From: a virus
Reading direction: 5' to 3' (one strand)
IMG/VR virus record: IMGVR_UViG_3300009151_005549
Span: 1 to 26,449 of that record
DNA length: 26,449 nucleotides
This document shows, one piece after another, positions 2 through 22,700 of this stretch. How positions within the stretch are numbered: the first letter of the stretch is position 1; each line of letters begins with the position of its first letter. The position numbers were made by a program, and so were the translations under genes. The notes beneath the pieces are model-generated. The model was not told the origin of the DNA, did no database searches, and saw only the letters and a program-made list of their open reading frames with translations.

Positions 2-3000
2 GACTTGACCATTCGAACTCAGTCTAGCGGCAATGCTTTCACAGAAATGTACCAAAGTTCCAACAGTTGGGAAGCCTTTGCCGAAGATGATAACACAGAG
101 GCCAATAGTGCCTATGCTTGGATTCGCGCAGATTTAGCAACAGCAAATACTCCTCGAGTATTCATCAATAACGTAAGAGGCAGTGACGGCCTTGATTCAA
201 CCTGGACCTTTGACGACGCAGGTAAAATAACATTGCCCCATGGTGCTTCACTTAATGATACCGCAGGTGATTCGGTAGCATTTGGTCAGAATGCAGGCGC
301 CAACAGTCAATATCAACACGCTGTGGCCATTGGTCTTAATGCCGGCTATCAATATCAAGGTGAAGATTCTGTTGCAATTGGATTCGACGCTGGATATTAC
401 AATCAAGGTCGTGGCGTGGCCATTGGATACCGAGCCGGCCAAGGAACCAGTCAGTCAACACCAGTCAGCGCAACTTATGGTGGCAGCGGCCCTGCCCACA
501 TTTATGTTTCGGGCACTGGCAATCCTTCATTGGTACTAGATAGTGTCACCAACGTTATAACATATAATCAATATGTTACAGGCAACAATATTCCAGCCAA
601 CACATACGTCACAAACATATACCCTGGTGAAGACCGCATTGAGATCAGCCAGCCACCCACTGCACCACTTGTTGCTGGTGATGCCATAACATTTATTGGA
701 AGCAACATAGGTGTGGCCAGTACCAGCAGTCTAGTGGCAGGGGCAAGAGTGCTCGGAACCAGTATTCCGGTGGGTACATATATAAACAGTATTCTAGGAC
801 CCAACAACATAGATATAAGTCAACGTCCCAGTGCTCCTCTTGTGGATGGGGACTACCTTGAATTTTATATAGGACAAGGTGAGTATGCCACCGCCATTGG
901 CTATGATGCAGGAATCCAGTATCAAGATGTAAATGCGGTGGCAGTTGGACGCAGTGCCGGTACCAATCATCAAGGTGCAAACACAGTGGCCGTTGGTTAC
1001 GTTGCTGGAGCCTATTCACAAGGTGCCAATGCAGTGGCCATTGGTGCATTTGCTGGAACGCAGACTCAGGGCATTAATACTGTGGCCATTGGCTATCACA
1101 CTGGCGGTAACACCCAAGGTGCTCGTGCAGTGGCCATTGGAGAAGATGCTGGCCACGAAATCCAAGGTGCAAATTCTATAGCAATTGGCGCCGAGGCCGG
1201 ACGCTACACACAAGGAACAAATACCTTAGCAATTGGACATTTTGCCGGTCTTCAGACACAAGGCAATTCCGCGGTGGCCATGGGCTGGACTGCTGGTTAT
1301 CAGTACCAAGGTACAGCCGCGGTGTCCGTTGGCGAAGATGCGGGTTATACAACTCAAGGTAATGCCGCAATAGCCATGGGCCTGCAGGCTGGTTATGATA
1401 CACAAGGTGCTAATGCCATAGCCATTGGTTATACTGCTGGATTAAGTGCTCAAGGAAATGTTGCAATAGCCATTGGTCAGAATGCTGGTCAGTCACAACA
1501 AGGCACAGCCGCAGTGGCCATGGGTTGGAATGCCGGTCAAGGTGGCCAAGGCAATGCCGCTATTGCCATTGGTGAAGATGCTGGATTTACCAATCAAGGT
1601 GAATATTCTGTGGCCATCGGTTACCAAGCAGGTTATTACGGCCAAGCCAATAACAGCATTGTATTGAATGCCTCTGGAGACCAAATAAACGGTATAACTG
1701 CCAACTCATTCACAGTCAAACCCGTACGTAATGCCAGCACAGGCAATGTGTTGTACTATGATCAATCGTCGGGTGAGATTACATTTGATGTAGGTGGTGG
1801 TGGTTCGGCCAACATCATCTATAATGGTACCAGCAATGTCTCGATTCCTGTAGCCAATAGCAATGTGACAATCAATGCCAATACATATCAATGGAACTTT
1901 GGTGTAGATGGTAATACCACATTCCCTAATGGTGCAATATTTACTGGGTATGATCTTTATGCTGCCGCCAACAGTTACATAGAACTTGCTGGTGATACTG
2001 GCAATACTTACATGGGTGTCAGCAACACCAGTGCGTTTATCCAAACAGATTGGAGCGGAGCACAATATCAATGGACCTTCGACGCAAACGGTAATTTAAC
2101 AACTCCTGGCGGTTCAGGCGATATCACCCTGACCGGTGGCAACATCACTGGTGCTAATAATGTTAGCACTGGAACTGTCACACTTGTAAACGGTGCAGTG
2201 ATTCGAGACACCGCAAACAATGCAGTGGCATTTGGTAACGCCGCCGGACTAACCTCACAAGGCGGCGGCGCAGTGGCCATTGGATTTACTGCTGGTTATA
2301 ACACACAAGGTCTTGTCGCAGTGGCCATTGGTGATCAAGCCGGACAAACATCACAAGGCACGGCCGCATTGGCAATTGGTATTAATGCTGGTCAAAACTC
2401 ACAAGGCAACATCGCAATAGCAATCGGCGGCGATGCTGGACAAACATCACAAGGCGCTTACTCAGTGGCTATTGGCTATTATGCCGGACACACATCACAA
2501 GGCTCTACCGCATTGGCAATTGGTAATTTTGCTGGTCGCACTTCACAAGGCAACAACTCAATCATATTAAATGCCACTGGAGCCAACTTAGATCAAACAG
2601 TAGCCAACACATTCACTGTGGCACCAGTCCGCAATGATAATTCAAATATTGCCGAAGTCATGTTCTACAACACCACTTCAAAAGAAATCACCTATGGCAA
2701 TGTCATAAGTGTTAGTGGCAATGTCACAGCCGCTAATTTCTTTGGCAACGGCAATACCTTATCTAATGTTGCTACTCAGGTAACAGGATCGTGGGACGTG
2801 CCTGTGGGCAACAGCACCCAGAATTTCACGGTGAATAGCGGCACATATAGCATGTGGGTTGATTGCAATATCACCAATGGTATCTTGGTTTGGAATGCCA
2901 CGGCCACCGTTACCAACACCAACGTGCCTGTTGTGGGTGCTCAGTATGCCTGGGTCTACAACGGTGGCGGAACGCCCATTGACTTTACCAGCATACCCAA

Positions 3001-3139
3001 TCAGTTTACAGGCACTGCCAATGCCATAGTTCGTAGCAATACGGCTCCCAGTTCAACTACCAATAGATTTGACTTTGGTATCAACAATACCAGCGGCGGT
3101 AATGTCACTGTGCGTTACGGTTACACTAAGATAAGTTAA
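2..3139 (+). CDS. Partial tail-fibre protein with YadA-head-like repeats (5' end outside window)
   Basis: The reading frame is open from the left edge, so the start lies upstream; the first possible start inside is a TTG at 5 with no visible ribosome binding site. About 1,045 residues remain. The main body has roughly 27 copies of a 16-residue unit of the form AVAIGxxAGxxxQGxx, in three blocks. This resembles the left-handed beta-roll head repeats of YadA/Hep_Hag trimeric adhesins. A motif W-x-F-x(3)-G-x(3)-x-P occurs three times, near nucleotides 201, 1890 and 2070, and is common in phage fibres. Block 1 is interrupted by a duplicated approximately 55-residue domain (505-873). The C-terminal 150 residues are non-repetitive and beta-rich, as expected of a fibre tip. 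I infer a trimeric host-recognition fibre. A structural role is well supported; the exact fibre identity is not. Confidence 0.85.
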   Translation, partial: DLTIRTQSSGNAFTEMYQSSNSWEAFAEDDNTEANSAYAWIRADLATANTPRVFINNVRGSDGLDSTWTFDDAGKITLPHGASLNDTAGDSVAFGQNAGANSQYQHAVAIGLNAGYQYQGEDSVAIGFDAGYYNQGRGVAIGYRAGQGTSQSTPVSATYGGSGPAHIYVSGTGNPSLVLDSVTNVITYNQYVTGNNIPANTYVTNIYPGEDRIEISQPPTAPLVAGDAITFIGSNIGVASTSSLVAGARVLGTSIPVGTYINSILGPNNIDISQRPSAPLVDGDYLEFYIGQGEYATAIGYDAGIQYQDVNAVAVGRSAGTNHQGANTVAVGYVAGAYSQGANAVAIGAFAGTQTQGINTVAIGYHTGGNTQGARAVAIGEDAGHEIQGANSIAIGAEAGRYTQGTNTLAIGHFAGLQTQGNSAVAMGWTAGYQYQGTAAVSVGEDAGYTTQGNAAIAMGLQAGYDTQGANAIAIGYTAGLSAQGNVAIAIGQNAGQSQQGTAAVAMGWNAGQGGQGNAAIAIGEDAGFTNQGEYSVAIGYQAGYYGQANNSIVLNASGDQINGITANSFTVKPVRNASTGNVLYYDQSSGEITFDVGGGGSANIIYNGTSNVSIPVANSNVTINANTYQWNFGVDGNTTFPNGAIFTGYDLYAAANSYIELAGDTGNTYMGVSNTSAFIQTDWSGAQYQWTFDANGNLTTPGGSGDITLTGGNITGANNVSTGTVTLVNGAVIRDTANNAVAFGNAAGLTSQGGGAVAIGFTAGYNTQGLVAVAIGDQAGQTSQGTAALAIGINAGQNSQGNIAIAIGGDAGQTSQGAYSVAIGYYAGHTSQGSTALAIGNFAGRTSQGNNSIILNATGANLDQTVANTFTVAPVRNDNSNIAEVMFYNTTSKEITYGNVISVSGNVTAANFFGNGNTLSNVATQVTGSWDVPVGNSTQNFTVNSGTYSMWVDCNITNGILVWNATATVTNTNVPVVGAQYAWVYNGGGTPIDFTSIPNQFTGTANAIVRSNTAPSSTTNRFDFGINNTSGGNVTVRYGYTKIS
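265..455 (+). repeat. YadA-head-like 48-bp repeats, block 1 (4 copies)
   Basis: Four 16-residue units, with cores FGQNAG, AIGLNAG, AIGFDAG and AIGYRAG, precede an inserted domain. Nucleotide copies are diverged but the protein core (A-I-G-x-x-A-G) is kept. Confidence 0.8.
505..873 (+). repeat. Duplicated domain inserted in the YadA-like stalk
   Basis: Two related segments of about 55 residues lie back to back. Copy A (about 521-708) contains NNIPANTYVTNIY, then IEISQPPTAPLVAGD. Copy B (about 709-873) contains TSIPVGTYINSIL, then IDISQRPSAPLVDGD. Flanking AIG-x-x-AG repeats resume on both sides, so the pair is an insertion in the repeat array. Function is unknown; a side-branching binding domain would fit. 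Confidence 0.75.
886..1650 (+). repeat. YadA-head-like 48-bp repeats, block 2 (about 16 copies)
   Basis: Sixteen consecutive units carry cores such as AIGYDAG, AVGRSAG, AMGWTAG, SVGEDAG and AIGYQAG, mostly spaced 16 residues apart with a conserved Q-G or Q-A between cores. The block ends at an abrupt switch to a non-repeat segment near 1650. Confidence 0.85.
2209..2550 (+). repeat. YadA-head-like 48-bp repeats, block 3 (7 copies)
   Basis: Seven units have cores AFGNAAG, AIGFTAG, AIGDQAG, AIGINAG, AIGGDAG, AIGYYAG and AIGNFAG. Most are joined by T-S-Q-G, more uniform than in block 2. The entry sequence (IRDTANNAVAFGNAAG) parallels that of block 1 (LNDTAGDSVAFGQNAG), so whole blocks appear to have been duplicated with their caps. 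Confidence 0.8.
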
Positions 3140-3141
3140 AA

Positions 3142-3867
3142 ATGGCCATAACAATCGGACGCGGAATCACCTTAGGCAGGGGCATATCAGTTGCTCCAGT
3201 GACAGTACTTACACCTCCGGTGCTGAGTCTTGACGCTGGCAATCCTGCCAGTTATCCTGGAGCAGGGGGCTACTCTACCTGGACTGACACCATTGGATCA
3301 ATGACGTTTACACTGGTAAACGGTCCCACATACAACAGTGCCAACGGTGGATACATACAGTTTACGCCCAGCGCAGGACAGTATGCAGCCAGCCCCACAA
3401 ACTTGGGCACACTGGCCAACTGGTCAATCGAAGCCTGGCATTATTACGATGGTACCAATACTGCCAGTGGACCCAACATATTCACAGAATACCCATACGG
3501 CGGTGGCACTATCAATCTTGGCCTGGGTTCTACTAATAATGCGTCTGATTTACAGACCTGGTGGTATGGTGGAGGATTCCAAACCACCAATCCATATACA
3601 CTAACACCAGGAAACTGGTATCAGATTGTGGGCACATTTGATGGCACCACTCTCAACCTGTATGTAAACAACACCCTGGTCGAAACTACCAATAGGCCAC
3701 CAGGTGGGGCGGCCAACCCTGGAATTGGATATGGTTTAATGACACGTTGGGATCCAGGCGGGTTCTGGGGCGGCGGATTGGCCATTGTTAATGTCTACAA
3801 TCTTGCTTTAAGCGACGCAGAAGTTACTCAAAACTTCAACCACTACCGCTCAAGATTTGGTCTTTAA
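3142..3867 (+). CDS. LamG/concanavalin A-like virion or adhesin protein
   Basis: 241 residues, starting 2 nt after the previous stop with no good ribosome binding site, so translation is probably coupled to the fibre gene. The N-terminus (AITIGRGITLGRGISV) looks like a short phage virion leader. Residues of about 25-240 have the pattern of a LamG-type jelly roll: LSLDAGNPASY, then WTD near the start, W-S-I-E-A-W in the middle, N-W-Y-Q-I-V-G-T-F-D-G-T-x-L-N-L-Y-V-N-N, and a final I-V-N-V-Y-N-x-A-L-S-D-A-E-V. That last element is typical of LamG_3-like domains. Such domains usually bind carbohydrate, so a glycan-binding role next to a fibre is likely. The 3' end overlaps the convergent methyltransferase gene by 18 bp, leaving no room for a terminator between them. 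Confidence 0.82.
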   Translation: MAITIGRGITLGRGISVAPVTVLTPPVLSLDAGNPASYPGAGGYSTWTDTIGSMTFTLVNGPTYNSANGGYIQFTPSAGQYAASPTNLGTLANWSIEAWHYYDGTNTASGPNIFTEYPYGGGTINLGLGSTNNASDLQTWWYGGGFQTTNPYTLTPGNWYQIVGTFDGTTLNLYVNNTLVETTNRPPGGAANPGIGYGLMTRWDPGGFWGGGLAIVNVYNLALSDAEVTQNFNHYRSRFGL

Positions 3868-4497
3868 CTGACGCACCAAGGTCAAGCCATTTTCAAACGG
3901 CAAGTCCATGACCTGTAGGTCAGATCGCTGTTTTAATTCTGTGATATAGTCACACACACTAAACTCATACTTGCGATCCGCTCCATAGATTGGCGAATGA
4001 AAGCGAGTTATACTGTCGTGAAATAGTGCAATAGACTGCAAACTCATTTTGTGTTCAAAGCTGGTATAATCAAATCGAGCTTGTGCTTGTGTGTGTAGTC
4101 CATCCACAAACAACATGTCTATGTTGTCCAGCTCCTGATATGTTGCTGTAGTAACAAACTCCTGTGTGGTCATTCTGTAGTGTTGAATATTAGGAACTGC
4201 ATGATCCTCAAACCATGTCTGAACTTGATCAGCATCTTGCCAGTGAGAATCAACTAGGCCAGGGTCAATGAACGTCACGGATCCTGTATCCAGATTATCT
4301 TGCATGCCACGAGCTATCAGCATGGGCACAAAGCCACGCCAAGAGCCAATGCACACCACCCGTTTGGGTCGATACACCCGGGCCAGAGAGTAGTATATCC
4401 AGCCCAGCCCCAGATTTGAATCTTCAGCAGTTTGTCCATGCCCCATTTCCAGCATGTCAGGGTTTGATAAAAGTTTTTCAAGCCATTGTTTGTTCAC
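3850..4497 (-). CDS. Class I SAM-dependent methyltransferase-like protein
   Basis: 215 residues from a GTG start; this gene overlaps the 3' end of the upstream ATP-grasp gene by 20 nt, which supports coupled translation. Visible Rossmann methyltransferase features are motif I-like VVCIGSWRG (residues 47-55), a following acidic strand FIDPG (76-80), and D-M-L-F-V-D-G-L-H-T (127-136) followed by ALFHDS (157-162). That last pattern is typical of Methyltransf_24-type enzymes. Motif I has S-W-R-G where E-x-G-x-G is usual, so the SAM site is a variant. The substrate is unknown. As last gene of a cassette with two glycosyltransferases and a ligase, it may methylate a sugar or peptide product; that is inference. 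An internal ATG (residue 15) is a less likely start. Confidence 0.75.
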   Translation of the reverse strand: MNKQWLEKLLSNPDMLEMGHGQTAEDSNLGLGWIYYSLARVYRPKRVVCIGSWRGFVPMLIARGMQDNLDTGSVTFIDPGLVDSHWQDADQVQTWFEDHAVPNIQHYRMTTQEFVTTATYQELDNIDMLFVDGLHTQAQARFDYTSFEHKMSLQSIALFHDSITRFHSPIYGADRKYEFSVCDYITELKQRSDLQVMDLPFENGLTLVRQLKTKS

Positions 4498-6232
4498 GAT
4501 TTACTTTCAAAGGTTGTATATTTTTACTGTGTGCTTGGACAAGGAACACAACATCATCGGGATTTTCTATTAGAATATTGTCCCAGCGGTCCAAAGGCAG
4601 GCCATGTGCTGCCACGTCTGCCTTGGTCATAACACACACAGCCGATGTGACTTCTGGGTTGAAGATCAAACTTTTTGCGGCCGCATAACTATCAGGCCAG
4701 CTGGCAGTAATTTGTAGTCCGTTTAACCATAGTCCTTGATCCGTGGCTAATCCGTCGGCAGCATACGCAGCCGCTAATTCCATGGCCATGCCGACAGGTA
4801 AAGGATCATCAACTATGGCCAAGTGAACTGGAATACGCGATCCCAACCGGAACAGATCCAACATCACAGGCTCAATGCCATGGTTGTAGCCAATCTGCGG
4901 TATGGCATTGACTTCGCAAATAAGAGCACCAGTCTCCAACCAAGAACGAGTAATATCTGTAGTGATAAAATCAACTCCGGCTATGTCCAGGCCCACAATC
5001 CTGGCAGCTCGCAAACACACAGCCGTGTTGTCAGGGTGAATGATAGCACGATCAATGGCTCGAGTTTGTCCACCAGCACTGGCATTGTTTCTGCGTCTCA
5101 GTTGTATGGTCTGGCCCTCGGTCAACACGGTGTCTAACTCAACCCCTTGTTGTTTCAGCATGCCCAACACTTCTTCATCTATGTCATGACGTGCCCCATT
5201 GGTGGCTATGATCACAAATGGTTCATCATTGTCGGGTCGTTTGATGCGTCTGGATTCGTTTTCGTAATTGTCAATCAGGTATTTGACTGTGTTCATGCCA
5301 TCTCCAGCAATGGTAGCTGGAAGTTTACGAGTCACAGTTATGGCTTGATCTTTGTAGATGGTAAATCTATGTCCCGTTCCTTCAACATGACGCTCAACTA
5401 GAAATTCTGAAACTAATTTTGTCACTTCATTGTAGGCTAGTCGCAGGGTTGATTTATCAGCAATACCAGCATAGACGCCTTGTCCGTTGTCACGATCATA
5501 AGGCTTGATTACCACAGGATAGCCCAACTGATCTGCTGCTGCCAGGGTTTCTTGCCAGGTTTTGACTGTGACATGCTCGGCACCCGGCAAGCCTGCCAAA
5601 CGCAATAGAGTGGCTGTGGTCCTTTTATTTTTAGCAAATATCAGTCCCTGTGCTGATGTAGCCGGAGTCATGGTGCTACTGAGTCGTTGGCTGTAGCATC
5701 CAGTGCCAAATATGTGTGTTCCGGCCCAGAGTCTGTGTGCAGGTATGTCATGCTTCATGGCCATGGTAGCCATAAATCCTTGATTCTGTCCAGGCTCACC
5801 GTGAGGATCTAACTGTTGACTATAGTCATCAATCAAGGATTCAATATTGTACTGACCTTGGGCAAATTGTTCCAACACCTGTTCAACAAAACGGAAACTG
5901 ATTGTGGTTGCCACAGCCGAGGCCAGGCTCATGATCACGGTAAACACTTGATCTTGTTGTTGTATAACATGATAACGATTGGATACTACAATACGATTCA
6001 TGCCTTGAACAAAACAACTCAAGTTCAAAGCACGATGCAGCAGTTGCAGTTGTGGATCATTAGAATTGGCAACAGCAGTAAATCCCAGGGCTTGATCCAG
6101 GGCCTGGTCTGCCTGTGCAAAATCAAAGTTCTCAGGAATATCAATCTTGACAGATAGCACAACAGTGGCACCCGGTACCCCAAATGCTGAACCCAGGCGT
6201 GTTTTATGAACTTGTGCCAACTCAAATATCAC
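4478..6232 (-). CDS. Cyanophycin synthetase-like ATP-grasp ligase with a short, P-loop-less Mur-ligase-like tail
   Basis: 584 residues from a GTG that overlaps the upstream stop as GTGA. Residues of about 1-200 match the CphA N-terminal plan, ending near residue 200 in a T-S-A-x(5)-A-x-x-K run before the ATP-grasp. Residues 201-450 are a clear ATP-grasp of CphA type: YPVVIKPYDRDNGQG (238-252), VER (279-281), HR (288-289), GDG (310-312), RRRNNASAGG (379-388), GLDIAGVD (414-421) and EVNAIP (440-445). In CphA this domain adds aspartate to the growing chain using ATP. The tail (467-584) still resembles the Mur-ligase half (GLATDQGLWLNG, then LDRWD) but is far shorter and has VDDPLPVGM where GTNGKTT is expected. 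Usual CphA is about 870 residues. Cyanobacterial CphA2 also lost its second ATP site, so an amino-acid or dipeptide ligase is plausible. Product unknown. Confidence 0.85.
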   Translation of the reverse strand: MIFELAQVHKTRLGSAFGVPGATVVLSVKIDIPENFDFAQADQALDQALGFTAVANSNDPQLQLLHRALNLSCFVQGMNRIVVSNRYHVIQQQDQVFTVIMSLASAVATTISFRFVEQVLEQFAQGQYNIESLIDDYSQQLDPHGEPGQNQGFMATMAMKHDIPAHRLWAGTHIFGTGCYSQRLSSTMTPATSAQGLIFAKNKRTTATLLRLAGLPGAEHVTVKTWQETLAAADQLGYPVVIKPYDRDNGQGVYAGIADKSTLRLAYNEVTKLVSEFLVERHVEGTGHRFTIYKDQAITVTRKLPATIAGDGMNTVKYLIDNYENESRRIKRPDNDEPFVIIATNGARHDIDEEVLGMLKQQGVELDTVLTEGQTIQLRRRNNASAGGQTRAIDRAIIHPDNTAVCLRAARIVGLDIAGVDFITTDITRSWLETGALICEVNAIPQIGYNHGIEPVMLDLFRLGSRIPVHLAIVDDPLPVGMAMELAAAYAADGLATDQGLWLNGLQITASWPDSYAAAKSLIFNPEVTSAVCVMTKADVAAHGLPLDRWDNILIENPDDVVFLVQAHSKNIQPLKVNREQTMA

Positions 6233-7155
6233 TGGTCACCATCTTCTTTTCTGCTGGGAAAATATTCAGCGGCGTAAGATTCGATATCAGGTCTGGGTCT
6301 GGACCAGACCCAAGCACCATTGGCCGCTATAGTTAGGTCCAAGGCAGGATCAAAACCCAACTGTTGTAATCGTTCATGACGAGACCAGTAGCCACGATTG
6401 GGTATTTCTCCGTGCCATAGATGATAGATAGTGTGTGGAATATAACCAACATTGCCTTGAACTGCTTGATTGAATTGACGTGCCCACTGATTATAGTGTT
6501 GTAAATGTTGGTTGGTGATAGGCACAGTTTCAGGAGCAGTCGAGAAACGCCCATATGCAGCATGCAGGATCATGCGATCAGCTGCACCCATTATCATGGC
6601 ATCATAGAATTTTAATTCATCAACAACATCTCTACGAATACTCCAGGCCAAGCCGGGGCTAACTTCTCTGCGGGTGTGTCCCCATCCATAAGGTGTTCTG
6701 CGTTCTAGTGAATCTATGCCCTGCTGTTCTATTTCGTAGATCAATCCACGGCCTGCATGTTGGTAACTGTCGGGGATCACATGTTCGCCAGGTTCAAGAT
6801 CTACAAAACGATTGAACAATTGAACCATGACCTTATCTTGTAGTTGACGTTCAGCATCAGCCACCCAACCAGGATCATCAAACAGCACATCACAATCAAT
6901 CCAGGCCACAGCGTCACAGTCTGCGGGCAAGTGTTCAAGTGCTATGTTTAATAATCGTTCTTTTTGCCAGACCATAGCACCACCAGATATCTGTACAAGA
7001 CAATCTGCATCGGATTTATTCAGTTCAAAATTGCCGTTGAAACTCAGCTCCACTGTGATCAAAGGCACAGCCAAATGATTCTTAAACACTCGATATTTGG
7101 CAAGATGATTTTGAAATACAGCAGGGTTAAAATAAGAAGTTATTGCATATAACAT
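6229..7155 (-). CDS. GT-A-type glycosyltransferase-like protein
   Basis: 308 residues, ATG start, ending in a GTGA overlap with the ligase gene. A DxD-like site sits in VAWIDCDVLFDDP (83-95), preceded by a conserved-looking W-Q-K-E-R-L-L-N (63-70), as in nucleotide-sugar-binding GT-A enzymes. Later segments S-P-G-L-A-W-S-I-R-R-D-V (166-177), M-I-M-G-A-A-D-R-M (187-195) and HLWHG (245-249) followed by R-G-Y-W-S-R-H match the acceptor-side pattern of GT-A enzymes of galactosyltransferase type. There is no signal peptide or membrane segment, so a cytoplasmic enzyme is expected. Donor and acceptor cannot be read from sequence. A Shine-Dalgarno is not evident, although a TAAATA core lies 10-15 nt upstream. 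Confidence 0.78.
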   Translation of the reverse strand: MLYAITSYFNPAVFQNHLAKYRVFKNHLAVPLITVELSFNGNFELNKSDADCLVQISGGAMVWQKERLLNIALEHLPADCDAVAWIDCDVLFDDPGWVADAERQLQDKVMVQLFNRFVDLEPGEHVIPDSYQHAGRGLIYEIEQQGIDSLERRTPYGWGHTRREVSPGLAWSIRRDVVDELKFYDAMIMGAADRMILHAAYGRFSTAPETVPITNQHLQHYNQWARQFNQAVQGNVGYIPHTIYHLWHGEIPNRGYWSRHERLQQLGFDPALDLTIAANGAWVWSRPRPDIESYAAEYFPSRKEDGDQ

Positions 7156-7164
7156 AGGTTAAAA

Positions 7165-7170
7165 TATTTA
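7165..7170 (-). promoter_or_regulatory. Possible late-promoter core before the GT-A gene
   Basis: The minus strand reads GTAAATATT here, containing the TAAATA core of T4-type late promoters, but only about 10 nt from the start codon. The 71-bp gap between the two glycosyltransferase genes shows nothing else. Weak evidence; it may be chance in an AT-rich spacer. Confidence 0.25.
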
Positions 7171-7226
7171 CTCTGCATTGTTTATAATCACTCTTTTGCC
7201 ATTCACTGGCTCTCTGTCAGCGGTCT

Positions 7227-8378
7227 TTAAATTTTGAACCAGCTCAAGAACTTGTGCATCTTGTCAACCACACTGTCCCAGTCACCCACTTGGGGTTGAC
7301 GAAATAATCTAGCACTGGGATACCAAGGCGAATCTTCACGCTTGAGCAACCAACGCCAGCAGTTGCCATACGCATTTAACGGAATCCACACAGGCCGCCC
7401 TAGAGCACCGGCCATGTGTGCATTGGCAGTGTCCACAGAAATCACCAGGTCAAGATGATGCATGAGTCCTGCTGTGTCTGAAAAGTCTCTTATGGTGCCC
7501 GGATAACACTCGCCGCCTGCAGCCGTGATCACAGCAGTTTCTTCGTCGGTGGCATCCATCTGCAGGTTGATCCACTGATGTTCAGGATTGCGACGAATTA
7601 GATCAGCCATCTTTTCCACAGGCATGCTTTTGTGTTTGTGTATCCAGGAATCCTTGCGGCCTGACCAACATACACCAATTCTCATGCGAGTTTTAGCTCC
7701 TAGTCGATTGGCCCAGATCTGTGCTTTTGCAGGGTCGGCTGCAATGTACTGCAACTGGTGTGCAATATTTTCCAGAGTCATACCAATAACTTTAGGAATG
7801 TCCATCATGGCAATCCAGTAATCAAACTCACCAAAATCTTCTCCGGGTTCGTAGATACCCACAATGATTCCGGCTGGTTGCGGAAACAAGGGCTTAACAC
7901 TGGGATTCAACAGTAATTTTATTTTCACACCGGTTGAGTGTAAATTGGCAGTGAATCTTATGAATTGTATTTGGTCACCAAGTCCTTGCTCACCTATGAT
8001 CAACAGTGTTTTATCTCGAAGATCTTGACCTGTCCATTCGGGTTCAGCCAGTTTGGGTTTGGTACCGTCAAGATGTTCAAATCTCCACCGTGCTTCGTAC
8101 AAGGGCCATCCTCGAGCATAATCACCGTTGAGCAGGTAGGCCACTGCAAGATTGAACTCAGAAGTGACATCAGCAGGATTGATATCATGTGCTGCATGTA
8201 AAAACGGAATAGCACGAGCAGGATAGCCCATTTCTCTCAGTACATTACCGTAGTTGTTGAATGCTGCACTGTGATTGAAATCTTCAGCAAACACCTGTGC
8301 GTAACAGGCCAGGGCCTGTTCAGGATTGTTCTCACTGCGATGTTGATTGCCTTGGTCAATAAGTTCTTGATGGTTCAT
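7227..8378 (-). CDS. TPR-containing GT9-like glycosyltransferase
   Basis: I chose the ATG at 8378 (383 residues). The 40 extra residues possible from 8498 look non-homologous and would run into the leader of the divergent gene. Residues 5-100 hold about three tetratricopeptide repeats (for example AAFNNYGNVLREMGYPARAI at 38-57). Residues 122-383 resemble the heptosyltransferase-like GT-B proteins often fused to TPRs in bacteria: GEQGLGDQIQFIRF (129-142), RIGVCWSG (233-240), SVDTANAHMAGALG (314-327), then W-R-W (341-343), SPWYPSARLFRQ (350-361) and GDW (365-367). The H-M-A-G-A-L-G segment is the nucleotide-sugar-proximal loop in that family. It is the first gene of the - strand cassette and is likely cytoplasmic. 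No clear Shine-Dalgarno precedes it. Substrate unknown. Confidence 0.82.
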   Translation of the reverse strand: MNHQELIDQGNQHRSENNPEQALACYAQVFAEDFNHSAAFNNYGNVLREMGYPARAIPFLHAAHDINPADVTSEFNLAVAYLLNGDYARGWPLYEARWRFEHLDGTKPKLAEPEWTGQDLRDKTLLIIGEQGLGDQIQFIRFTANLHSTGVKIKLLLNPSVKPLFPQPAGIIVGIYEPGEDFGEFDYWIAMMDIPKVIGMTLENIAHQLQYIAADPAKAQIWANRLGAKTRMRIGVCWSGRKDSWIHKHKSMPVEKMADLIRRNPEHQWINLQMDATDEETAVITAAGGECYPGTIRDFSDTAGLMHHLDLVISVDTANAHMAGALGRPVWIPLNAYGNCWRWLLKREDSPWYPSARLFRQPQVGDWDSVVDKMHKFLSWFKI

Positions 8379-8426
8379 GAGATATTTAAGAATAACACAG
8401 CCCTGAGCAAAATAAACCGAGTTTGC

Positions 8427-8434
8427 TAAATACA
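8427..8434 (+). promoter_or_regulatory. Putative T4-type late promoter (GCTAAATACA)
   Basis: TAAATACA matches the last six bases of the T4 late consensus TATAAATA plus two further bases shared with the sites at 9976 and 19721. It lies about 90 nt upstream of the start at 8525, giving a leader with two potential hairpins. Confidence 0.5.
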
Positions 8435-8438
8435 AGTC

Positions 8439-8478
8439 AACGCAATACTGCGTTTTATGCGGTGATTTACCCTGCCGC
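8439..8478 (+). other. Two potential stem-loops in the 5' leader of the gene at 8525
   Basis: The first is AACGCA (8439-8444), loop ATAC, TGCGTT (8449-8454), a perfect 6-bp stem followed by TT. The second pairs GCGG (8459-8462) with CCGC (8475-8478) and may extend by a wobble and an A-T pair. They lie just after the putative late start and may stabilise the leader. The first resembles a weak terminator, but its T-run is short. Confidence 0.35.
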
Positions 8479-8509
8479 GTAGCGAATGGAACTCGCATCG
8501 GACTTCTTT

Positions 8510-8515
8510 AAGGAG
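8510..8515 (+). promoter_or_regulatory. Shine-Dalgarno AAGGAG that fixes the start at 8525
   Basis: AAGGAG lies 9 nt before the ATG at 8525. An in-frame ATG at 8486 lies upstream of it and has no such site, so 8525 is the preferred start. Confidence 0.8.
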
Positions 8516-8524
8516 AAAAAAATC

Positions 8525-9307
8525 ATGGGTCGTCCTCTTAAAATACAAAAATTATCCACCGGCTCCGGCAATGGTGGCGCCAGCGTGGGTGTGGATCTTG
8601 GCTATCCAAACTTTGCCTCGCTCACAGCACCGGTGTTCAACTCACCAACACAAACACTCAATTCCACACAGTATGTGGGTGTGGTAGGTGGTGCAGCCCC
8701 CACAGATACTCCCAGTGCCACAAACCCTAGAGTTGTGGTCACAGTGAATATCACCTTGGCCTCTGGTTCTGCAGCAGGTTCTGCCACTGGTTATATCATA
8801 CGCCAAAAAGGCAGCCACAAGTATCTAGTTGGTGATGCAACCAGCCTCACTGCTCTAGTTGTGGGCAATGCCTACATGATTGCTGTGGTTGGCAACACAG
8901 CCTGGACCTCTTATGGTGCTCCCGGCAACTATGGTGTTGGCACAATCTTCACTGCCACCGCCGCTCTGGGCAGCACAGGCACAGGCAGTGTGAATCTGGT
9001 GGGTGTATGTATACTCAGCAATTCTGGATCTCCTACCAATGGAAACATGAGTATTGCCTATATAGATGACACCAGCTCTGATGTTTACATCAGTAAACTT
9101 ACCAATCACTTTATCCTGGGCTGGGAAGGTGGTTCCGACTATGCTGCTGATTCAGTTACCGGCGATCTTCGTAGTTTGGCCAACTTCTTTACAGACGAAG
9201 GCACCATGACCAAATCTGGTACCACTGGTCAAGCCAACACAGGCAGCATTGCCTCAGGACAACAAAATCTGTTGAACTTGGCACTGGTAGAAAACGTCAC
9301 TTCCTAA
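8525..9307 (+). CDS. Small phage virion/tail-associated protein (MGRPLKI family-like)
   Basis: 260 residues, with the start fixed by AAGGAG. The N-terminus MGRPLKIQK is one I associate with small structural proteins near the fibres of T4-like marine phages. Next comes a low-complexity Ser/Thr/Gly region, then Y-I-I-R-Q-K-G-S-H-K-Y-L-V-G-D. After that, V-G-N-A-Y-M-I-A-V-V-G-N-T-A-W-T-S-Y-G-A (about 113-132) and G-V-G-T-I-F-T-A-T form a small beta-rich unit recurrent in phage virion proteins. A later stretch, G-N-M-S-I-A-Y-I-D-D-T-S-S-D-V-Y-I-S-K-L, is also beta-rich. No enzyme motif, signal peptide or membrane segment is visible. It is first in the rightward block. The structural assignment rests on neighbourhood and remembered family features; molecular function is unknown. 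Confidence 0.7.
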   Translation: MGRPLKIQKLSTGSGNGGASVGVDLGYPNFASLTAPVFNSPTQTLNSTQYVGVVGGAAPTDTPSATNPRVVVTVNITLASGSAAGSATGYIIRQKGSHKYLVGDATSLTALVVGNAYMIAVVGNTAWTSYGAPGNYGVGTIFTATAALGSTGTGSVNLVGVCILSNSGSPTNGNMSIAYIDDTSSDVYISKLTNHFILGWEGGSDYAADSVTGDLRSLANFFTDEGTMTKSGTTGQANTGSIASGQQNLLNLALVENVTS

Positions 9308-9322
9308 TAGATTTAGTACCGG

Positions 9323-9355
9323 AATCCTCTCAGATACATACTGGGAGGATTTTTT
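9323..9355 (+). terminator. Terminator-like hairpin overlapping the next gene's ribosome binding site
   Basis: AATCCTCTC (9323-9331) pairs with GGGAGGATT (9343-9351), with one G-U pair and an 11-nt loop. The stem is followed by T residues to 9355 and then directly by the ATG at 9356. The 3' arm contains GGGAGG, the Shine-Dalgarno of the downstream gene. The hairpin could therefore end transcripts, hide the ribosome binding site, or both. Confidence 0.65.
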
Positions 9356-9943
9356 ATGAGCGTAGCATTTGTATTGGGCAACGGTCAAAGCCGATCAATT
9401 ATTGATTTGACCAGAATTCGACCTTTGGGACCAATTTATGGTTGCAACGGACTGTACAGGGATTTTGAGCCCGATTGTCTTGTGGCCACAGATAGGCCCA
9501 TTGCAGAACACATACAACGTTCGGGTTATTCTAAAAAAAATAGATTTTATACCCGTAGACCCTTGCCAGATCTAGGAGCACACCAGGTTCCAAAAAAGTA
9601 TCATGGCAACAGTTCGGGCCCTATTGCGTGTGCAATAGCTGCATCCGACGGACACCGACGAATATACCTACTGGGCTACGATATGGCTGGCACAGCAGCC
9701 AGTAAATTCAACAATGTTTATGCAGGAACAGAGTTTTACAAGTCTGCAGATGCTGCCCCTACCTTTACAGGCAACTGGATCAAACAATTATCCACAGTTG
9801 CTAGGGACTTTGCCCGAACGGAATTTGTTCGTGTGTGCGGTACAACCACTGCTGAAATTACCGACTTGAAAAACATAGATAATTTCTCACACATTGATCT
9901 CAAAGCCTTTGTACACAGGATAAACACCGGCGAAAACCTGTAA
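9356..9943 (+). CDS. Rossmann-like protein resembling DUF115/GT42-type proteins
   Basis: 195 residues; the ATG is preceded by GGGAGG at a 7-nt spacing. An N-terminal beta strand and glycine turn (FVLGNGQSR, 5-13) are followed by I-Y-G-C-N-G-L-Y-R-D-F-E-P-D (27-40), A-T-D (44-46), N-S-S-G-P-I-A-C-A-I-A-A (85-96) and R-I-Y-L-L-G-Y-D-M (102-110). This order (GNG-x-S, a C-N turn, an S-G helix, then I-Y-L-x-G-x-D) recalls DUF115/MptE-like proteins and GT42 sialyltransferases such as Campylobacter Cst. The region after the last motif has no obvious equivalent of the Cst catalytic histidine, so enzymatic activity is uncertain. It sits between fibre genes; a nucleotide-sugar or glycan-related role is inference. 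Confidence 0.6.
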   Translation: MSVAFVLGNGQSRSIIDLTRIRPLGPIYGCNGLYRDFEPDCLVATDRPIAEHIQRSGYSKKNRFYTRRPLPDLGAHQVPKKYHGNSSGPIACAIAASDGHRRIYLLGYDMAGTAASKFNNVYAGTEFYKSADAAPTFTGNWIKQLSTVARDFARTEFVRVCGTTTAEITDLKNIDNFSHIDLKAFVHRINTGENL

Positions 9944-9975
9944 TCTCCCTACAACCTTGGCCTTGCTGGCTCTGG

Positions 9976-9983
9976 TAAATACA
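9976..9983 (+). promoter_or_regulatory. Putative T4-type late promoter (GGTAAATACA) before the 2,509-residue fibre gene
   Basis: TAAATACA lies 16 nt before the ATG at 10000, with an AAGAG (9986-9990) acting as a weak Shine-Dalgarno. GG replaces the TA at the front of the T4 consensus. The short distance implies a very short leader, so this site is less certain than the one at 19719. Confidence 0.45.
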
Positions 9984-9999
9984 CTAAGAGACTTTACGA

Positions 10000-12900
10000 A
10001 TGACCCAATATGTTATTGACATTGGCGCAGTGCCCGACGACGGGCAGGGCGATCCGTTACGCACAGCGTTTGCATTTACCAACGACAACTTCAATCAGAT
10101 TTTTGAATCTGGACCTGTTGGCTCAAATGTAAAAATTGCCAACAATACCATCACCACCACGGTGATAAACAGCAACCTGATACTGAGTCCTTCGGGTATT
10201 GGTAAAATTCAGGTCAACAACACGCTGCTGCCACGAATTGACAATGTGTATGATCTGGGCAGCTTATCTCAAAGATTCAACACTATCTATGTGGGTTCCG
10301 GCGGGCTAGACATCACAGGCAGCATTGTTGTCAGCGGTAATATCACTGCTGACTATTTCATCGGTAACGGGTCAGCACTCACAGGCATTGTGGCCACCAC
10401 TGGTAGCAGGGTCGAAAACGGCAACAGCAATATCAACATACCTGCAGCAGGTTCCAATATATTTGTCACAGTCAACGGAACTGGCAATATTGTGGTATTT
10501 TCCAATACCGGAGCCTATGTTGCAGGCGAAGTAAGTGCAACTGGCAATATCACGGGTAATTATATCCTGGGCAACGGTGCATTGCTGACAGGTATCAATG
10601 CCAACTACAGCAATGCCAATGTAGCTGCCTACTTGCCCACATACACAGGTAATCTGGTCAGCTTGACAGGTCCGGTCACAACCACTTCTAACGTCACTGG
10701 TGGGAATATAAGAACCAGTGGGCAAATCACAGCCACAGGCAACATCACTGGTGGCAACGTAGACACCAACAGAGTCAATGCTGCAAACATCACTGTTGGT
10801 GGACCTGTCTCTGCAAGTGGTAACGTCACGGGTAATTATATTCTGGGTAACGGTGCGTTACTAACGGGTATCAATGCCAACTACAGCAATGCCAATGTTG
10901 CTGCCTACTTGCCAACCTATACCGGTAACCTGGTCAGTTTAACAGGACCAGTAACAACCACTGCCAATGTCACTGGTGCCAACATTCGCACAAGCGGACA
11001 AATAACCGCCACAGGAAATGTCACAGCAGGTAATGTAGACACTGGCAGAGTCAATGCTGCTACGATTACTGCCAGTGGAAATGTCAGCGGTGCATACTTC
11101 CTTGGTGATGGTAGTCAATTAACAAATTTACCTGCAGGAAATTACAGCAATGCTAATGTTGCTGCATATCTTCCGACCTATACCGGTAACCTAGTTAGTC
11201 TTGCTGGTCCAGTAACAACCACGTCTAATATCACCGGTGCCAACATTCGCACAACAGGGCAAATAACCGCCACAGGCAATATCACCGCAGGCAATGTAGA
11301 TACCAGTAGAGTCAACGCTGCCACGGTCACTGTCAGCGGCCCAGTTAGTGCAAGTGGCAATGTCACTGGTGCATACTTCTTGGGTGACGGTAGTCAGCTA
11401 ACCAATTTACCTGCGGGTAATTACAGCAATGCCAATGTTGCTGCATACCTTCCAACATATACTGGCAATCTAGTCAGCTTAACAGGACCAGTAACAACCA
11501 CAGCCAACATCACTGGCGGCAATTTGTTAACCAGTGGTCAAGCCACAGTCACTGGCAATATCACAGCAGGCAATGTAGACGCCACCAAAGTTAATGCTGT
11601 TACTGTTGCAGCCAGCGGATCGATCAGTGCGGTTGGCAACATCACCGGCAACAATCTAATTGGTGTCACTGTAACAGGAACCACTGTTACTGCCACTGCC
11701 AATGTGGTTGGCGGCAATATCACTACAGCTGGACAAATTTCATCTACAGGAAACATAACTGGTGGTAATCTCAGTGTTCCTGGTGGAACAGTCTCAAGTC
11801 TCACAGTTAGTGCTGCAGGAAATATTCGTGGCGGAAATCTTGTTACACCAGGATTTATCACAGCCACAGGCAACATCACTGGTGGCAACGTAGACACTGG
11901 CAATATTCATGCTGGTAATATAAATGTTGATAGTATTGTAAGTGCCCAAGGCAATGTGTACGGCAACACCTTTGTTGGCAATGGCTTATCGGTCTCTGGA
12001 AATGTTTCAGCAGGCAATATTTCTGTATCTGGAACTTTTGGTGCCACAACTCTCAGCGCATCAGGCAATGTGATTGGTGGAAACTTACTGACCACTGGCA
12101 AAGTTAGTGCGGTCGGCAATGTGTCAGGCAACTATTTTGTTGGTAACGGTGCGTTACTAACAGGCATCACAGTAACAGCTGGATCGTCACTGTTGAATGG
12201 CAATAGTAATGTTGTTGTGGGTGCCAATGGCAATGTCACAGTTGGTGTAAGTGGAACTAGTAATATAGCACAGTTTGCCAACACTGGTGCATATGTCACT
12301 GGTGTCATAAGTGCCACAGGCAACATAGCAGGCAGTTATTTGCTTGGTAACGGTGCGTTGATCACAGGATTGCCAGCAGGATACAGCAATGCTGATGTGG
12401 CAGCTTACCTGCCAACATATTCGGGCAACTTACCAAATTTAACTGGACTGGTATCAACCACAGGCAATGTTAGTGGCAATTACTTTATTGGTAATGGTAG
12501 TTTATTAACCGGTGTAACAGCATCCGGGGTCAATGCCAACGCACTAACGGGCAACACCCTGAGTTCAAATGTATTAAACTCAAGTCTAACATCGGTTGGA
12601 ACTCTAAGCAATCTGAGCGTAACCGGAAACACAAACAGTGGTAATTTATCAACTGGTGGAACAATAAGTGCAACAGGCAACATAACCGGCAATTATATCT
12701 TGGGTAACGGTGCATCGCTAACTGGTGTGATTACCAGTGTGGCCAACATCAACCTTGGAACATCCAACGTTACTGTGGTTAGTTCTGGAGGTAATGTCAC
12801 AGTTGGCATAGGCGGAACAAGCAATGTAGCAGTATTTTCTACCACAGGTGAATATGTTACTGGCCTAATTAGTGCAACAGGTAATATCACTGGCAGCAAC

Positions 12901-15900
12901 TTACTCACTGCTGGATTGATATCCGCAACTGCTAATGTTACTGCTGGTAACATTAACACAGCGGGATTGATATCAGCAACCGGCAATGTCACTGGAAATT
13001 ACTTTATTGGTAACGGTAGTCAACTAACAGGTGTTGCAGCATCTAGTGTAAATGCCAATGCATTGGTAGGCAATACACTAAGTTCAAACGTACTATATTC
13101 AAGTTTAACACAGGTTGGAACATTATCCAGCTTGACTGTAACAGGAAACACAACCAGTGGTAATTTATTAACTGGTGGGCTGATATCAGCAACCGGTAAT
13201 GTTATCGGCGGCAACATTGTTACGTCTGGCTCTGGAGGAAATATCACTGGGGCTAATGTAATTAGTGCCACAACATTTAGTGCTGCTGCTAATATTTTGG
13301 GCGGTAATGTTCTAACCAATGGCTTAATATCAGCAACTGGCAATGCCACCGTTGGTAATTTAAGCACAGCAGGATTGATTACCGCAACTGGTAATATTTC
13401 TGGCAACAATATTTTTGCCACAGGACTTGCAAGTGTCACAGGCAATGTGATTGCTGGCAATGTCAATACTGGTGCTATTAGACCTGTCAGCGGGCCGTTG
13501 ACAATTACCACTGCGTCGGGCAATTTGAATCTGCAACCGGCTGGCAATATTGTGTTGGCCAACACCTATATCAACAGTGTGGCCTATCCAGCACAGGATA
13601 CCGATGCTGCAACAAAATTATATGTTGACAACATGGTGTCAACTGCTATAGCGTACCACACACCTGTATATGCAGCTACCACTACTACCCTGGCCACAAC
13701 CACAGGCGGAACAATCACATATGCTCAGCCCAACGGAGTAGCCAATGGTGTTGGGGCAACACTGACCACCACTGGCTCATTCAATCTAGTTGATACCAGC
13801 AATGTTCAAACACTGGGCACACGTATCCTGGTCAAAGATCAAGCCAATGCGGTACAAAACGGCATTTACACCTGGGCCAATGCCACAGCAATTGTTCGAG
13901 CCACTGATGCAGACGAATATGGTCCAGATAGTTCGCAACAGATAAGTCTAAACGATTATTTCTTTACCAGCACCGGTAATGTCAATCTTGGTGCTGCCTT
14001 CATAGTCAATTCACCGCTGGGCACTATTACTTTTGGCACAAGCAACATTACTTTTGCTCTGTTTAGTCAAACAACTGCCTACACTGCCAATGTTGACGCT
14101 GGACTAAGTCTAACTGGTACTGTATTCTCAGCCAAAGTTGATCTGAATACCACAGCATTTGATGCTGGTGGAAATATCATTGTCAAAGCAGGTGCTAATC
14201 TTACCACACCCAATATTGGTGCTGCCACAGGCACAAGTCTAAGTTTAATAGGCAACATCAACAGTGGAAATGTCAACACCAGCGGCTTGATTTCAGCAAC
14301 TGGTAACATTACAAGTGCTGCCAATGTCACCGGCGGTAACATCCTAACTGGTGGAACAATAAGTGCAACCGGCAACATCACTGCTGGCTATTTTTCTGGC
14401 AACGGTGCTGGACTTTCTAATGTCATTGCGTCCGGCGGTGTGGGCAATACCATCACACTAGGCACACCCACAGACGGTAGCCTAACAGCCAATGTTGCTT
14501 ATCCTGGATGGACCACAGGTACTTTTGTTACAGATGGCCTAGACGATCTGAATCAAGTGTCATTGAATATTGCTAACAGTACCTATGTGGGCAATGCCTA
14601 TATCACTGCCAACGTTTATTCTGGACCCAGCCCGTTGTCAGTAGCATTCACTGGTCGTTATATTGGTAATCCCAATAGTTTCTTGTGGCAGTTTGGGGAT
14701 GGCACAGCCAACGCTACCACAGCCAATGCGGTTCATACCTTTAGCAATGCACTAGGCGGAACTTTTACTGTGAACTTCACCGCCTTCAATACCAATGGAA
14801 CCTACAATGGCAATGCAGCCAATGGCGCCAAAGGATCAACTAGTACAGCATCAATTTCAAACATTGTGTTGTACACACCAAGTCCAATACCGTCATTTAC
14901 TCTGAGCAGCAACAGTTTCAACACAGGCAACATTATTACCATAACCAATACCAGCCAGTATGTGGTCTGGTATGATCTGAGTTTTGGAGATGGTACTGCT
15001 AACTTTACTGCTGGTCCAGGATTAGGCAACACATCGTTTACCAATGTAACTCATCAGTACAATTCTGTGTCGTCCAACGCAGACAGCTTGTACAGTGCAG
15101 TTCTAAGTGGCACCAGCAACACCGCAGGTCCGGGCAACGTTACTGTGGTATCATCGGCCAGCAACGTAAAAGTTTATGCTCCTCAAACCGGCAATGTGTT
15201 TGTCACTGCCAATCGGGCCAACGTGATCAACGGCCTAGGTGGTATAAGTTTCCGCAACGACTCAAATGGCACGCCAGGCAACACAGCCAGTTTTGGCGCA
15301 CAACAATTGTACAACTTCAACTACGGTGACGGCAATATCAGCAATGTCAATGTGGGCACAGGTATTGCAGGTAACCCAGCAGCAGCCAATGTCACAAACA
15401 CATTTGTGTTGAGTGCTGCCAATCAAGCTGGCAACGTTTATCAACAGTTCACAGCCAATTTGTTCCTGTACACTGGTTACAGCAGCAGCCCAGCCCGGAG
15501 TGGTAACATCACAATCACAATAGAACCTCAAGTGCGTGGCAACTACATTGGAACCACAGCCAACGTTGTAACCGATGCCACTGCCAACACAGGCAATGCC
15601 AGAGTGGGATATCTCTATACTGATTACAATACTTCCAACCGATCAACATTCACATTCCAGAACACCAGTCAGAACAGTAATCTGGCCAACTGGTCCTGGG
15701 GTGATAGCACATTCAGCAATGGTGTGTCAAATGTGGGCAACACACTGCACACCTATAACAGCACTGGTGCGTTCACAGTGGCACTCACGGCCAACGGCAC
15801 ACCCAACGGTATAACCAGTACTGCTCAAAGCAACACAATCTCCAATGTTGGTTATATTTTTATTGCTGCCAATCCTACAGCACCTACTAATCTTAGTGGA

Positions 15901-19755: not shown

Positions 19756-22700
19756 ATGGCATTTCCAACAACACCCACAAACGGTCAAGTAACCGTAGTT
19801 AATCAGGTATCATACCAGTATTCCAGCGCAACCAACAGCTGGACTAGAATTTTATCCACAGCAAATGTTATTACTGCCAATACCATTGCAGTAAATGGCA
19901 ACTTGACTGTGGGTGTGGACATTGTTGCCAGCGGCAACATCACAGGTAATTATTACTTTGGTAACGGTAGTCAATTAACTGGGGTTACAGCGTCAAGTGC
20001 AGGTTTCCCAATCACAGCAGGCAACAGCAATATTGCAGCAGCAGCCAATAGCAATATTGCAATCACGGTTACAGGAACTCCTAATGTTGCTGTGTTTGCC
20101 CCAACTGGTGAATATGTTACAGGTGTTGTTAGTGCAAGCGGTACAGTAACAGGTGGCAATTTGGCCACTGGCGGAACAGCAAGTGCAGCAGGCACCGTAA
20201 CAGGTGGCAATTTGGCCACAGGTGGAACAGCGTCGGCTACAGGTACAGTAACAGGTGGCAATTTGGCCACAGGTGGAACAGCTTCGGCTACAGGTACAGT
20301 AACAGGTGGCAATTTGGCCACAGGCGGAACAGCTTCGGCTGCTGGCACAATAACCGGTGGAAACATTGCCACAGGCGGTACTGCAAGTGCTACCGGCAAT
20401 GTCACAGGTGGCAACCTAGTAACCAGCGGAGTAACACAAACAGGCAATTTTAGTATTACTGGCAATGTAATTGGTAATTTATTGCCCTCTGCTAATGCAA
20501 CATACAGTCTTGGCGGCCCAGGACAACTTTGGAAAAACTTGTATCTAAGCGGTAACACACTGGTTCTTGGTGATCAATCACTCAGCTCAAATGCCACTGC
20601 AATTTTTACAGCCAATAATTTTAGTTCCAACAATCTAGCTGCAACTAATGCGGTAGCAGCAGGAACCACTGTTAGTGCAGTGGGCAACGTAATTGGTGGC
20701 AACGTAACAACAGTAGGCCAAGTAAGTGCAACTGGTACCATAACAGGTGGCAATATTGCCACAGGTGGTACCGCAAGTGCTACAGGCAACATCACAGGTG
20801 GCAATGTACTCACAGGTGGGTTAATCAGTGCCACTGGAACAATAACTGGTGTTGACACAATAACAGGTGGAAATATTGCCACAGGTGGCACAGCATCAGC
20901 AACAGGCAATATCACTGGCGGCAATGTACTCACAGGTGGACTGATCAGTGCTACATCAACCATCACAAGTGCTGCCACAATAACAGGTGGCAACTTGGCC
21001 ACAGGTGGCACTGCAAGTGCAACCGGAACAATAACCGGCGGCAATTTGGCCACAGGCGGAACTGCGTCAGCAGCAGGAACTGTAACAGGTGGAAACATTG
21101 CTACAGGCGGTACCGCAAGTGCCACAGGCAATATCACAGGTGGCAATGTCTTAACAGCCGGTCAAGTAAGTGCAACCGGCAACGTAACTGGTAACTATAT
21201 CCTGGGTAACGGTGCGTCCTTGACCGGAGTCATCACAAGTGTGGCCAACATCAACAATGGCACATCAAATGTGACTATTGCTGCTGCCAACGCCAACGTT
21301 ACAGTCAGTGTTAATGGCACATCAAATGTTGCGGTATTTGCTACAACAGGTGAATATGTTACAGGTGTTGTGAGTGCAAGCGGTACAGTAACTGGTGGAA
21401 ACATTGCCACAGGCGGTACATCAAGTGCAACAGGTACAGTAACCGGCGGCAATTTGCTAACTGGTGGGTTGATCAGTGCCACTGGAACAATAACTGGTGT
21501 TGACACAATAACAGGTGGCAACTTGGCCACAGGCGGTACTACGTCAGCAACAGGTAACATAACTGGTGGTAATTTGTTAACAGGTGGCCTAATCAGTGCC
21601 ACATCAACTATCACAAGTGCTGCTACCGTAACTGGTGGCAACTTGGCCACTGGCGGAACAGCTTCGGCTGCAGGAACAATAACAGGTGGAAATATTGCCA
21701 CAGGTGGTACCGCAAGTGCCACAGGCAATGTCACAGGTGGCAATGTACTCACAGGTGGGTTAATCAGTGCTACTGGCAATATTACTGGTGGTAATATTGC
21801 CACTACTGGCACATTTGGCGCAGCAAGTCTGAGTGCATCAGGTAATGTCACTGGTGGTAATTTGCTAACAGGTGGTTTGATAAGTGCTACTTCAACTATC
21901 ACAAGTGCTGCCACAATAACAGGTGGCAATTTGGCCACAGGCGGCACAGCGTCAGCGACAGGAACAATTACTGGTGGAAACATTGCCACAGGCGGCACAG
22001 CGTCAGCGACAGGAACAATTACTGGTGGAAACATTGCCACAGGCGGTACTGCAAGTGCAGCAGGTAACATAACTGGTGGTAATTTGTTGACAGGTGGACT
22101 GATCAGTTCAACTGGCAGCATCACAACAACATCTAACATTTCAGGCGGCAACTTGTTGACCTCTGGACTGGTATCAGTAACTGGCAATGTTATTGCTGGC
22201 AATGTTAATACCAGCACTATCAGACCCACAAGTGGTGCATTGACAATCAGCACAGCATCAGGTAATTTGAACTTGAATCCTGCTGGCAATATTGTATTGT
22301 CTGCAAATACCTGGATCAACAATGTAAATTATCCGGCTCAAGCATCTGATGCAGCCACAAAAGAATATGTTGACAATCTTGCTACAACAGCTATTGCTTA
22401 TCACCAACCAGTTTTTGCAGCAACAACTACTACCCTGGCTACAACCACAGGTGGTACAGTAACTTACAACAATGGTACGTCTGGGGTTGGTGCCACATTG
22501 ACCACAACTGGCTCATTCAACTTGATCGATACTGCCAATGTTCAAACAGTTGGCACACGTATTCTGGTCAAAGATCAGGCCAATGCTGTGCAAAACGGTG
22601 TGTATGTTTACACCAGTAGTACAGTAATTACTCGTTCAACAGACGCTGACACATACGGGCCAGACAGTACAACTGATTTGAGTATCAATGATTATTTCTT

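Follow-up and report, generated by a model that had tools for sequence, protein, structure and literature searches.

Why should genes for surface chemistry lie among the fibre genes of a phage, on the opposite strand? The question is raised by the IMG/VR record IMGVR_UViG_3300009151_005549, from a phage described as large, aquatic and of the T4-like lineage; the window analyzed here is the entire record (26,449 bases). All four open frames annotated on its minus strand (7227–8378, 6229–7155, 4478–6232, and 3850–4497) are present, and fibre-like genes on the plus strand flank the set on both sides. A first-pass annotation had taken the four as one transferable cassette. We find that three of them, for a probable GT-A-type glycosyltransferase (GT-A), a cyanophycin-synthetase-like ATP-grasp ligase and a class I methyltransferase (hereafter the trio), form a mobile module, and that the fourth, for a TPR and GT9-like protein (TPR-GT9), is a separate gene. 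We further propose, with a probability of about one half, that the trio is a mobile decoration set which travels with a repeat-type fibre and decorates that fibre.

Results

The trio is present or absent as a unit

In the window the GT-A gene (6229–7155, minus strand) comes first and overlaps the ligase gene (4478–6232, minus strand) by the 4 nucleotides (nt) GTGA at 6229–6232, and the ligase gene overlaps the methyltransferase gene (3850–4497, minus strand) by 20 nt (4478–4497), both as first annotated. The same three genes, in the same order and overlapping, were found in six further contigs (L011–L016), which represent five distinct phages; L013 duplicates L014 (99.99% identity), with a methyltransferase truncated in its last codons. 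The GT-A/ligase overlap is 8 or 14 nt with the nearest ATG starts and the ligase/methyltransferase overlap is 8 nt in all six. L010 carries GT-A and part of the ligase, where the contig is cut, likewise along the fibre genes. All six full-trio contigs have the trio on the fibre strand, and the opposite strand therefore does not serve as the mark of a module that it was first taken to be. The trio is inverted relative to the fibre genes in the window, in its 99.99% twin L054 and in L004, which ends just past GT-A and whose GT-A protein is 87% identical to that of the window. Only the first 38 GT-A codons are seen in L005, beside a divergent fibre-like frame.

Together with the window, the trio contigs fall into at least four sequence groups. 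Identity over the best block is 99.8% for L010 and L011, 97.7% for L011 and L015 and 86% for L012 and L014; within the trio it is 91% for L012 and L013 and 82–84% for L016 and the others. The single best block that L016 shares with L012–L015 begins 12 nt ahead of GT-A and extends roughly to the methyltransferase end. Scans of viral contigs with the ligase and with the methyltransferase gave the same trio contigs and the window's twin; the methyltransferase scan lacked L010, whose contig ends earlier, and had one extra row (21%) that we regard as chance. In a check for scattered, independent genes, these scans of viral contigs met neither the ligase nor the methyltransferase outside trio contigs; GT-A relatives (25–37%) also occur alone in other phages, without ligase or methyltransferase. 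The trio frames are not chance, since all three genes are under purifying selection, with ratios of nonsynonymous to synonymous substitution (dN/dS) of 0.09–0.25 between relatives. L033, with a stop in frame, was left out of alignment A10 and L007 out of alignment A6.

Two contigs, L059 and L061, have an empty site, at which a relative of the Concanavalin/Laminin_G_3 lectin-like protein lam241 (3142–3867, plus strand) abuts TPR-GT9 directly. Homology with the window breaks off at 3866 in L061 and at 3773 in L059; both match it again from 7222. We infer an inserted segment at 3868–7221, comprising the trio and the 66 nt that precede GT-A. Its left (3859–3867) and right (7222–7230) edges carry copies of GGTCTTTAA, a direct repeat of 9 bp; this is weak evidence when taken alone, because 368 of 20,000 random stretch pairs also share a 9-mer. 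The final methyltransferase codons in the window read antisense through the end of lam241. G+C content is 0.45–0.47 across 3501–8500 and 0.43–0.50 over the whole window. The nearest relative, L055 (89% identity over window positions 7228–10000), belongs to a record without the repeat fibre, GT-A and ligase, and two records of 340 kb and 337 kb, not certified complete, carry TPR-GT9 without GT-A and ligase.

TPR-GT9 is a separate, conserved gene

TPR-GT9 (7227–8378, minus strand) matches the Pfam families TPR and Glyco_transf_9, the latter with 24.8 bits against a cut-off of 22. A longer start is available at 8498; the start at 8378 matches that of its L004 relative. Among 89 sources examined, the major capsid gene and TPR-GT9 converge in all 51 loci that have both (near-identical phages such as L074, L076, and L077 included), with a gap of 9 nt to 8.2 kb. 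The trio lies in two of these gaps (L012 and L014); the others are empty or hold HNH/GIY-YIG endonuclease-like genes, fibres or unassigned enzymes, where the endonuclease names and the T4 gp23-like capsid label were read from sequence with no family search. A variable hotspot between the convergent genes can be seen in loci from L054 to L133. In L011 and L015 the trio stands with fib260 without TPR-GT9 between them, and the 148-kb record of L016 has no TPR-GT9. A TPR-GT9 tree of 19 rows rejects a clade of window and L004 (approximately unbiased test, p 8e-147) despite their GT-A identity, and between L012 and L014 the synonymous divergence (dS) is 0.14–0.43 in the trio versus 1.07 in TPR-GT9; GT-A thus has a history different from that of TPR-GT9.

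All 46 distinct upstream regions of TPR-GT9 have TAAATA within 80 nt of the gene, versus 134 of 4,860 random stretches. It is not general to genes (0/58 for fib260, 1/32 for capsid and 8/62 for CSTI195). In examples at 8378–8390 and in relatives it stands a few bases ahead of the TPR-GT9 start, so near that the message may be nearly leaderless. We take the TAAATA element to be a putative T4-type late promoter, from the known form of such promoters and from TATAAATAC, which stands before the gene at 19756. A late-promoter-like element, GAGTAAATA (7165–7173, minus strand), also ends 9 nt before the GT-A start and is kept in L004 and L005, with the bases around it nearly unchanged in L005; TAAATA lies 8–9 nt ahead of GT-A in all three inverted forms, which would fit late expression of the trio.

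TPR-GT9 is accordingly a widespread separate gene of the T4-like lineage with its own promoter-like element, and not a member of the trio. With an empty site and a history unlike that of its neighbours, the trio is a mobile module; the transferable module of the first-pass annotation holds for these three genes, which stand next to fibre genes as a set or not at all, and has to be given up for TPR-GT9.

The trio occurs with one type of fibre

The frame at 5–3139 (plus strand; its start possibly lies beyond the window edge) encodes a fibre with 22 YadA-head-like repeats. We counted [VILA]A[IVM]G..AG repeats in the frames of 88 sources, made up of 10 trio rows and 78 others, 49 of which span the site. 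The repeat fibre is present in 9 of the 10 trio rows, the tenth being the truncated L004, and in 0 of the 78 other loci. Among the nine positive rows, L054 repeats the window and L057 repeats L014. Outside this count, L013 has 12 repeats and L005, whose fibre side is cut, at most one. Among 15 whole records the fibre occurs in three, the same three that hold GT-A and the ligase. The search did not force this link, because the trio loci were located through the enzymes and not through the fibre.

Three loci have a different fibre at the site, and they lack the repeats as well as the trio; the fibres of L059 and L061 match the window fibre weakly (E 1e-6 to 3e-9). The repeats match YadA_head under the cut-off in L014 (0.0003) and L012 (0.029), with no match in the window or L016. 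Distant repeat fibres (26–34%) were found in eight INPHARED records of other phages. None of these is among the four INPHARED records with a weak ligase match, and no methyltransferase relative was found in INPHARED, so a fibre of the repeat type need not come with the trio. Other modifying genes were also seen next to fibres. A sulfotransferase-like gene adjoins the fibre in L011 (1550–2308; Pfam match with E 0.006, under the cut-off) and L015 (2254–3012), and in L004 (457–3112) two group-1 glycosyltransferases and an FkbM methyltransferase follow a collagen-like fibre.

The three enzymes

The GT-A protein (308 amino acids (aa)) has relatives in phages and bacteria, among INPHARED phages a single one (28%). 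It matched no Pfam family; among 11 relatives there was one weak Glyco_transf_34 match (E 0.043), and a PDB sequence search with the profile gave nothing below E 0.2. The motif D87xD89 is invariant across the family alignment. Glycosyltransferases and IspD nucleotidyltransferases belong to one fold class, and the top 50 Foldseek matches of a low-confidence structure model (predicted local distance difference test (pLDDT) 52) were about half of each. After realignment the matches were mostly glycosyltransferases, with middling Z values (best 8.5 for GlcAT-S, 8.2 for GalNAc-T2). Motif and model together point to a probable GT-A-type glycosyltransferase.

The ligase (584 aa) consists of an N domain, a G domain and a degenerate Mur-like M-domain stub. 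It matches cyanophycin synthetase in NCBIfam over residues 92–551 with E 3e-74, far under the full-length cut-offs (251 vs. 877 bits for PRK14016 and 233 vs. 850 for TIGR02068). The ATP-grasp residues for ATP and Mg are kept (K203, K243, R289, N383, S385, D421, E440, and N442). The Mur P-loop G[TS]NGK[TS] was found in none of seven ligase proteins, which stop after the stub, and the N-domain motif HxxEH likewise in none of the seven. A complete HxxEH motif is given for 83% of CphA1 in PMC9262961; its loss is not decisive against CphA1, because some CphA1 are themselves without it. Profile comparison gave 2.9e-50 for CphA1 and 3.1e-30 for chain 8fxh, presumably a CphA2, which places the ligase closer to CphA1. 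Membership of CphA2 was therefore rejected by sequence, and the M domain seems to have been lost independently. The four matches in INPHARED phages are partial (28–29%).

The methyltransferase (215 aa) matches Methyltransf_24 with 52.4 bits (gathering cut-off 26.3); a PDB sequence search with it gave no matches. A known defence system was considered and rejected, PADLOC giving weak TPR matches plus one at E 0.008.

Bacterial relatives

A scan of bacterial genomes gave 27 loci with GT-A relatives. Four have the methyltransferase (45–51%), each together with a PaaK/BagE-type AMP-forming ligase. About 2.8 kb separate GT-A from the methyltransferase in L034, and in L036 the contig edge leaves only a 113-aa end piece of the AMP-forming ligase. 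Two further loci have GT-A and the AMP-forming ligase. A methyltransferase match in L028 (26%, E 4e-5) was not counted in the family. In Ramlibacter (L052), a short CphA-like gene stands beside GT-A and a TupA-like ATP-grasp gene; this cluster (5142–8939) may represent a glycopeptide system in bacteria. Another contig from the same genome, L216, has a CphA-like ligase, the methyltransferase and four GT-A copies, which stand in tandem beside the other two genes (8296–12340). Of 399 genomes of Ramlibacter's order, two had the methyltransferase: this one and the genome of L219. Six bacterial loci combine methyltransferase and GT-A: four with the AMP-forming ligase, one with the ATP-grasp ligase (L216) and one with neither (L219).

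Neighbouring genes

The frame at 9356–9943 encodes a 195-aa protein weakly like CST-I sialyltransferase and MptE. It has at least 578 relatives in viral contigs; of the best 80 loci, which were kept, 79 have fib260 and 59 have TPR-GT9 (many contigs are cut). At 19756–26328, C-terminal residues 2052–2187 match PA5oct-like and other large-phage proteins, some annotated as baseplate or structural.

Discussion

The fibre is the most likely acceptor of the trio's chemistry, a view favoured by the co-occurrence with one fibre type. GT-A would add a sugar to the fibre or to a glycan already there. The ATP-grasp ligase would then activate a carboxylate as an acyl phosphate and join an amine to it, most likely an amino acid, and the methyltransferase would cap a hydroxyl or a carboxylate. 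If the steps follow this order, the virion would end up with a glycan that is both amidated and methylated. A fuller version can be offered only tentatively, namely that the fibre comes with its own maturation kit: the fibre-plus-trio module would build an amino-acid-amidated, methylated fibre glycan with a cyanophycin-synthetase relative repurposed from storage polymer, and bacteria would use this chemistry too, in many cases with an unrelated ligase in place of the ATP-grasp enzyme.

Several observations weigh against fibre decoration. The GT-A model at its low confidence cannot separate a glycosyltransferase from an IspD nucleotidyltransferase, and the ligase model (pLDDT 43.6) was unusable and left out. 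His267 and Glu215, important in CphA1 according to PMC9427784, from which the residue roles are taken, are replaced in the ligase by N249 and I198, so its chemistry may differ; Arg323 is also replaced and Arg458 is not alignable. No TAAATA was found before GT-A in the five forward contigs looked at. The nine of ten rows with the fibre are not nine independent cases, since the trio contigs are related and two are second copies; L004 and L005 end before the fibre side and give no fibre verdict. In bacteria, 20 of the 27 loci (some cut) showed GT-A and no methyltransferase or either ligase, and in L219 methyltransferase and GT-A overlap by 4 nt with no ligase, which makes the ligase step not obligatory. 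No fibre was recognized beside the bacterial sets, though no systematic search for one was made. Finally, the co-occurrence of fibre and trio may mean only joint movement.

The main rival is a late change of the host envelope (lipopolysaccharide or capsule) by the trio, which would serve superinfection exclusion or keep progeny from adhering to debris. Surface modification is proposed for glycosyltransferase clusters of jumbo phages in PMC7824862, and bacterial relatives exist, including the pair of GT-A and short CphA-like gene beside the TupA-like gene in L052. We nevertheless regard this as possible rather than probable: the trio goes with a single type of fibre, and no sugar-nucleotide or flippase gene was recognized among the 10 window proteins scanned (a scan of a fragment, with the frames at 10000–17529 and 19756–26328 outside it). 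Somewhat less probable is that fibre and trio are biochemically unconnected, mere passengers that ride in the same recombining segment. The capsid–TPR-GT9 site, a hotspot with endonuclease-like genes and other fibres, would suit such passengers; against them, at least four sequence groups keep both fibre and trio, in two orientations and with other neighbours changed. A small soluble product of the trio, bearing sugar, amide and methyl groups and attached to neither virion nor envelope, appears unlikely. AMP-forming ligases of the PaaK/BagE type often use free small acids, and methyltransferase and GT-A stand alone in a bacterial chromosome (L219); the fibre linkage speaks against it, as does, in the window, L012 and L014, the position in a structural-gene hotspot. 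Modification of phage DNA is very improbable: phage glycosyltransferases can glucosylate DNA (PMC12619734), but the late-promoter-like element, the fibre linkage and the absence of the trio from most examined loci of the lineage all count against it, in a window too small to exclude DNA-base genes elsewhere.

If decoration of the fibre is correct, fibres would gain chemical variety through swaps of small gene sets and not through sequence change alone, which would bear on host recognition and on escape from fibre-binding defences, and the cyanophycin-synthetase family would have a new job. That bacteria combine methyltransferase and GT-A with either of two unrelated ligases also suggests a modification in bacteria of which we found no description in the literature searched. 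Among titles on phage or viral cyanophycin synthetase, or on phage glycosyltransferases with ATP-grasp enzymes, none describes the trio; the searches covered few subscription papers, and absence from print is not implied.

The trio resembles TupA-like systems in combining an ATP-grasp ligase with glycosyltransferases, and L052 has a TupA-like gene; among the window proteins scanned there was no TupA-like match. The jumbo-cyanophage clusters of PMC7824862 are of a surface-polysaccharide kind with sugar-nucleotide genes and a secondary-metabolite kind of 8–12 genes. They likewise join phage glycosyltransferases to other modifying enzymes; here there are three genes, none recognized as a sugar-nucleotide gene. 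Mycobacteriophage virions carry glycans on capsid and tail tube (as reported in PMC12619734, citing Freeman 2023), so that glycans on virion proteins are the shared feature; in the present case, known from genes only, the proposed target is a fibre and the set includes an ATP-grasp ligase. With CphA1 and CphA2 the ligase shares the N domain and the ATP-grasp G domain with its ATP and Mg residues. CphA2 has lost the Mur P-loop (PMC9427784), and the ligase is also without it. The ligase differs in having Asn249 for His267 and Ile198 for Glu215, so its acceptor may differ, and in occurring with GT-A and a methyltransferase.

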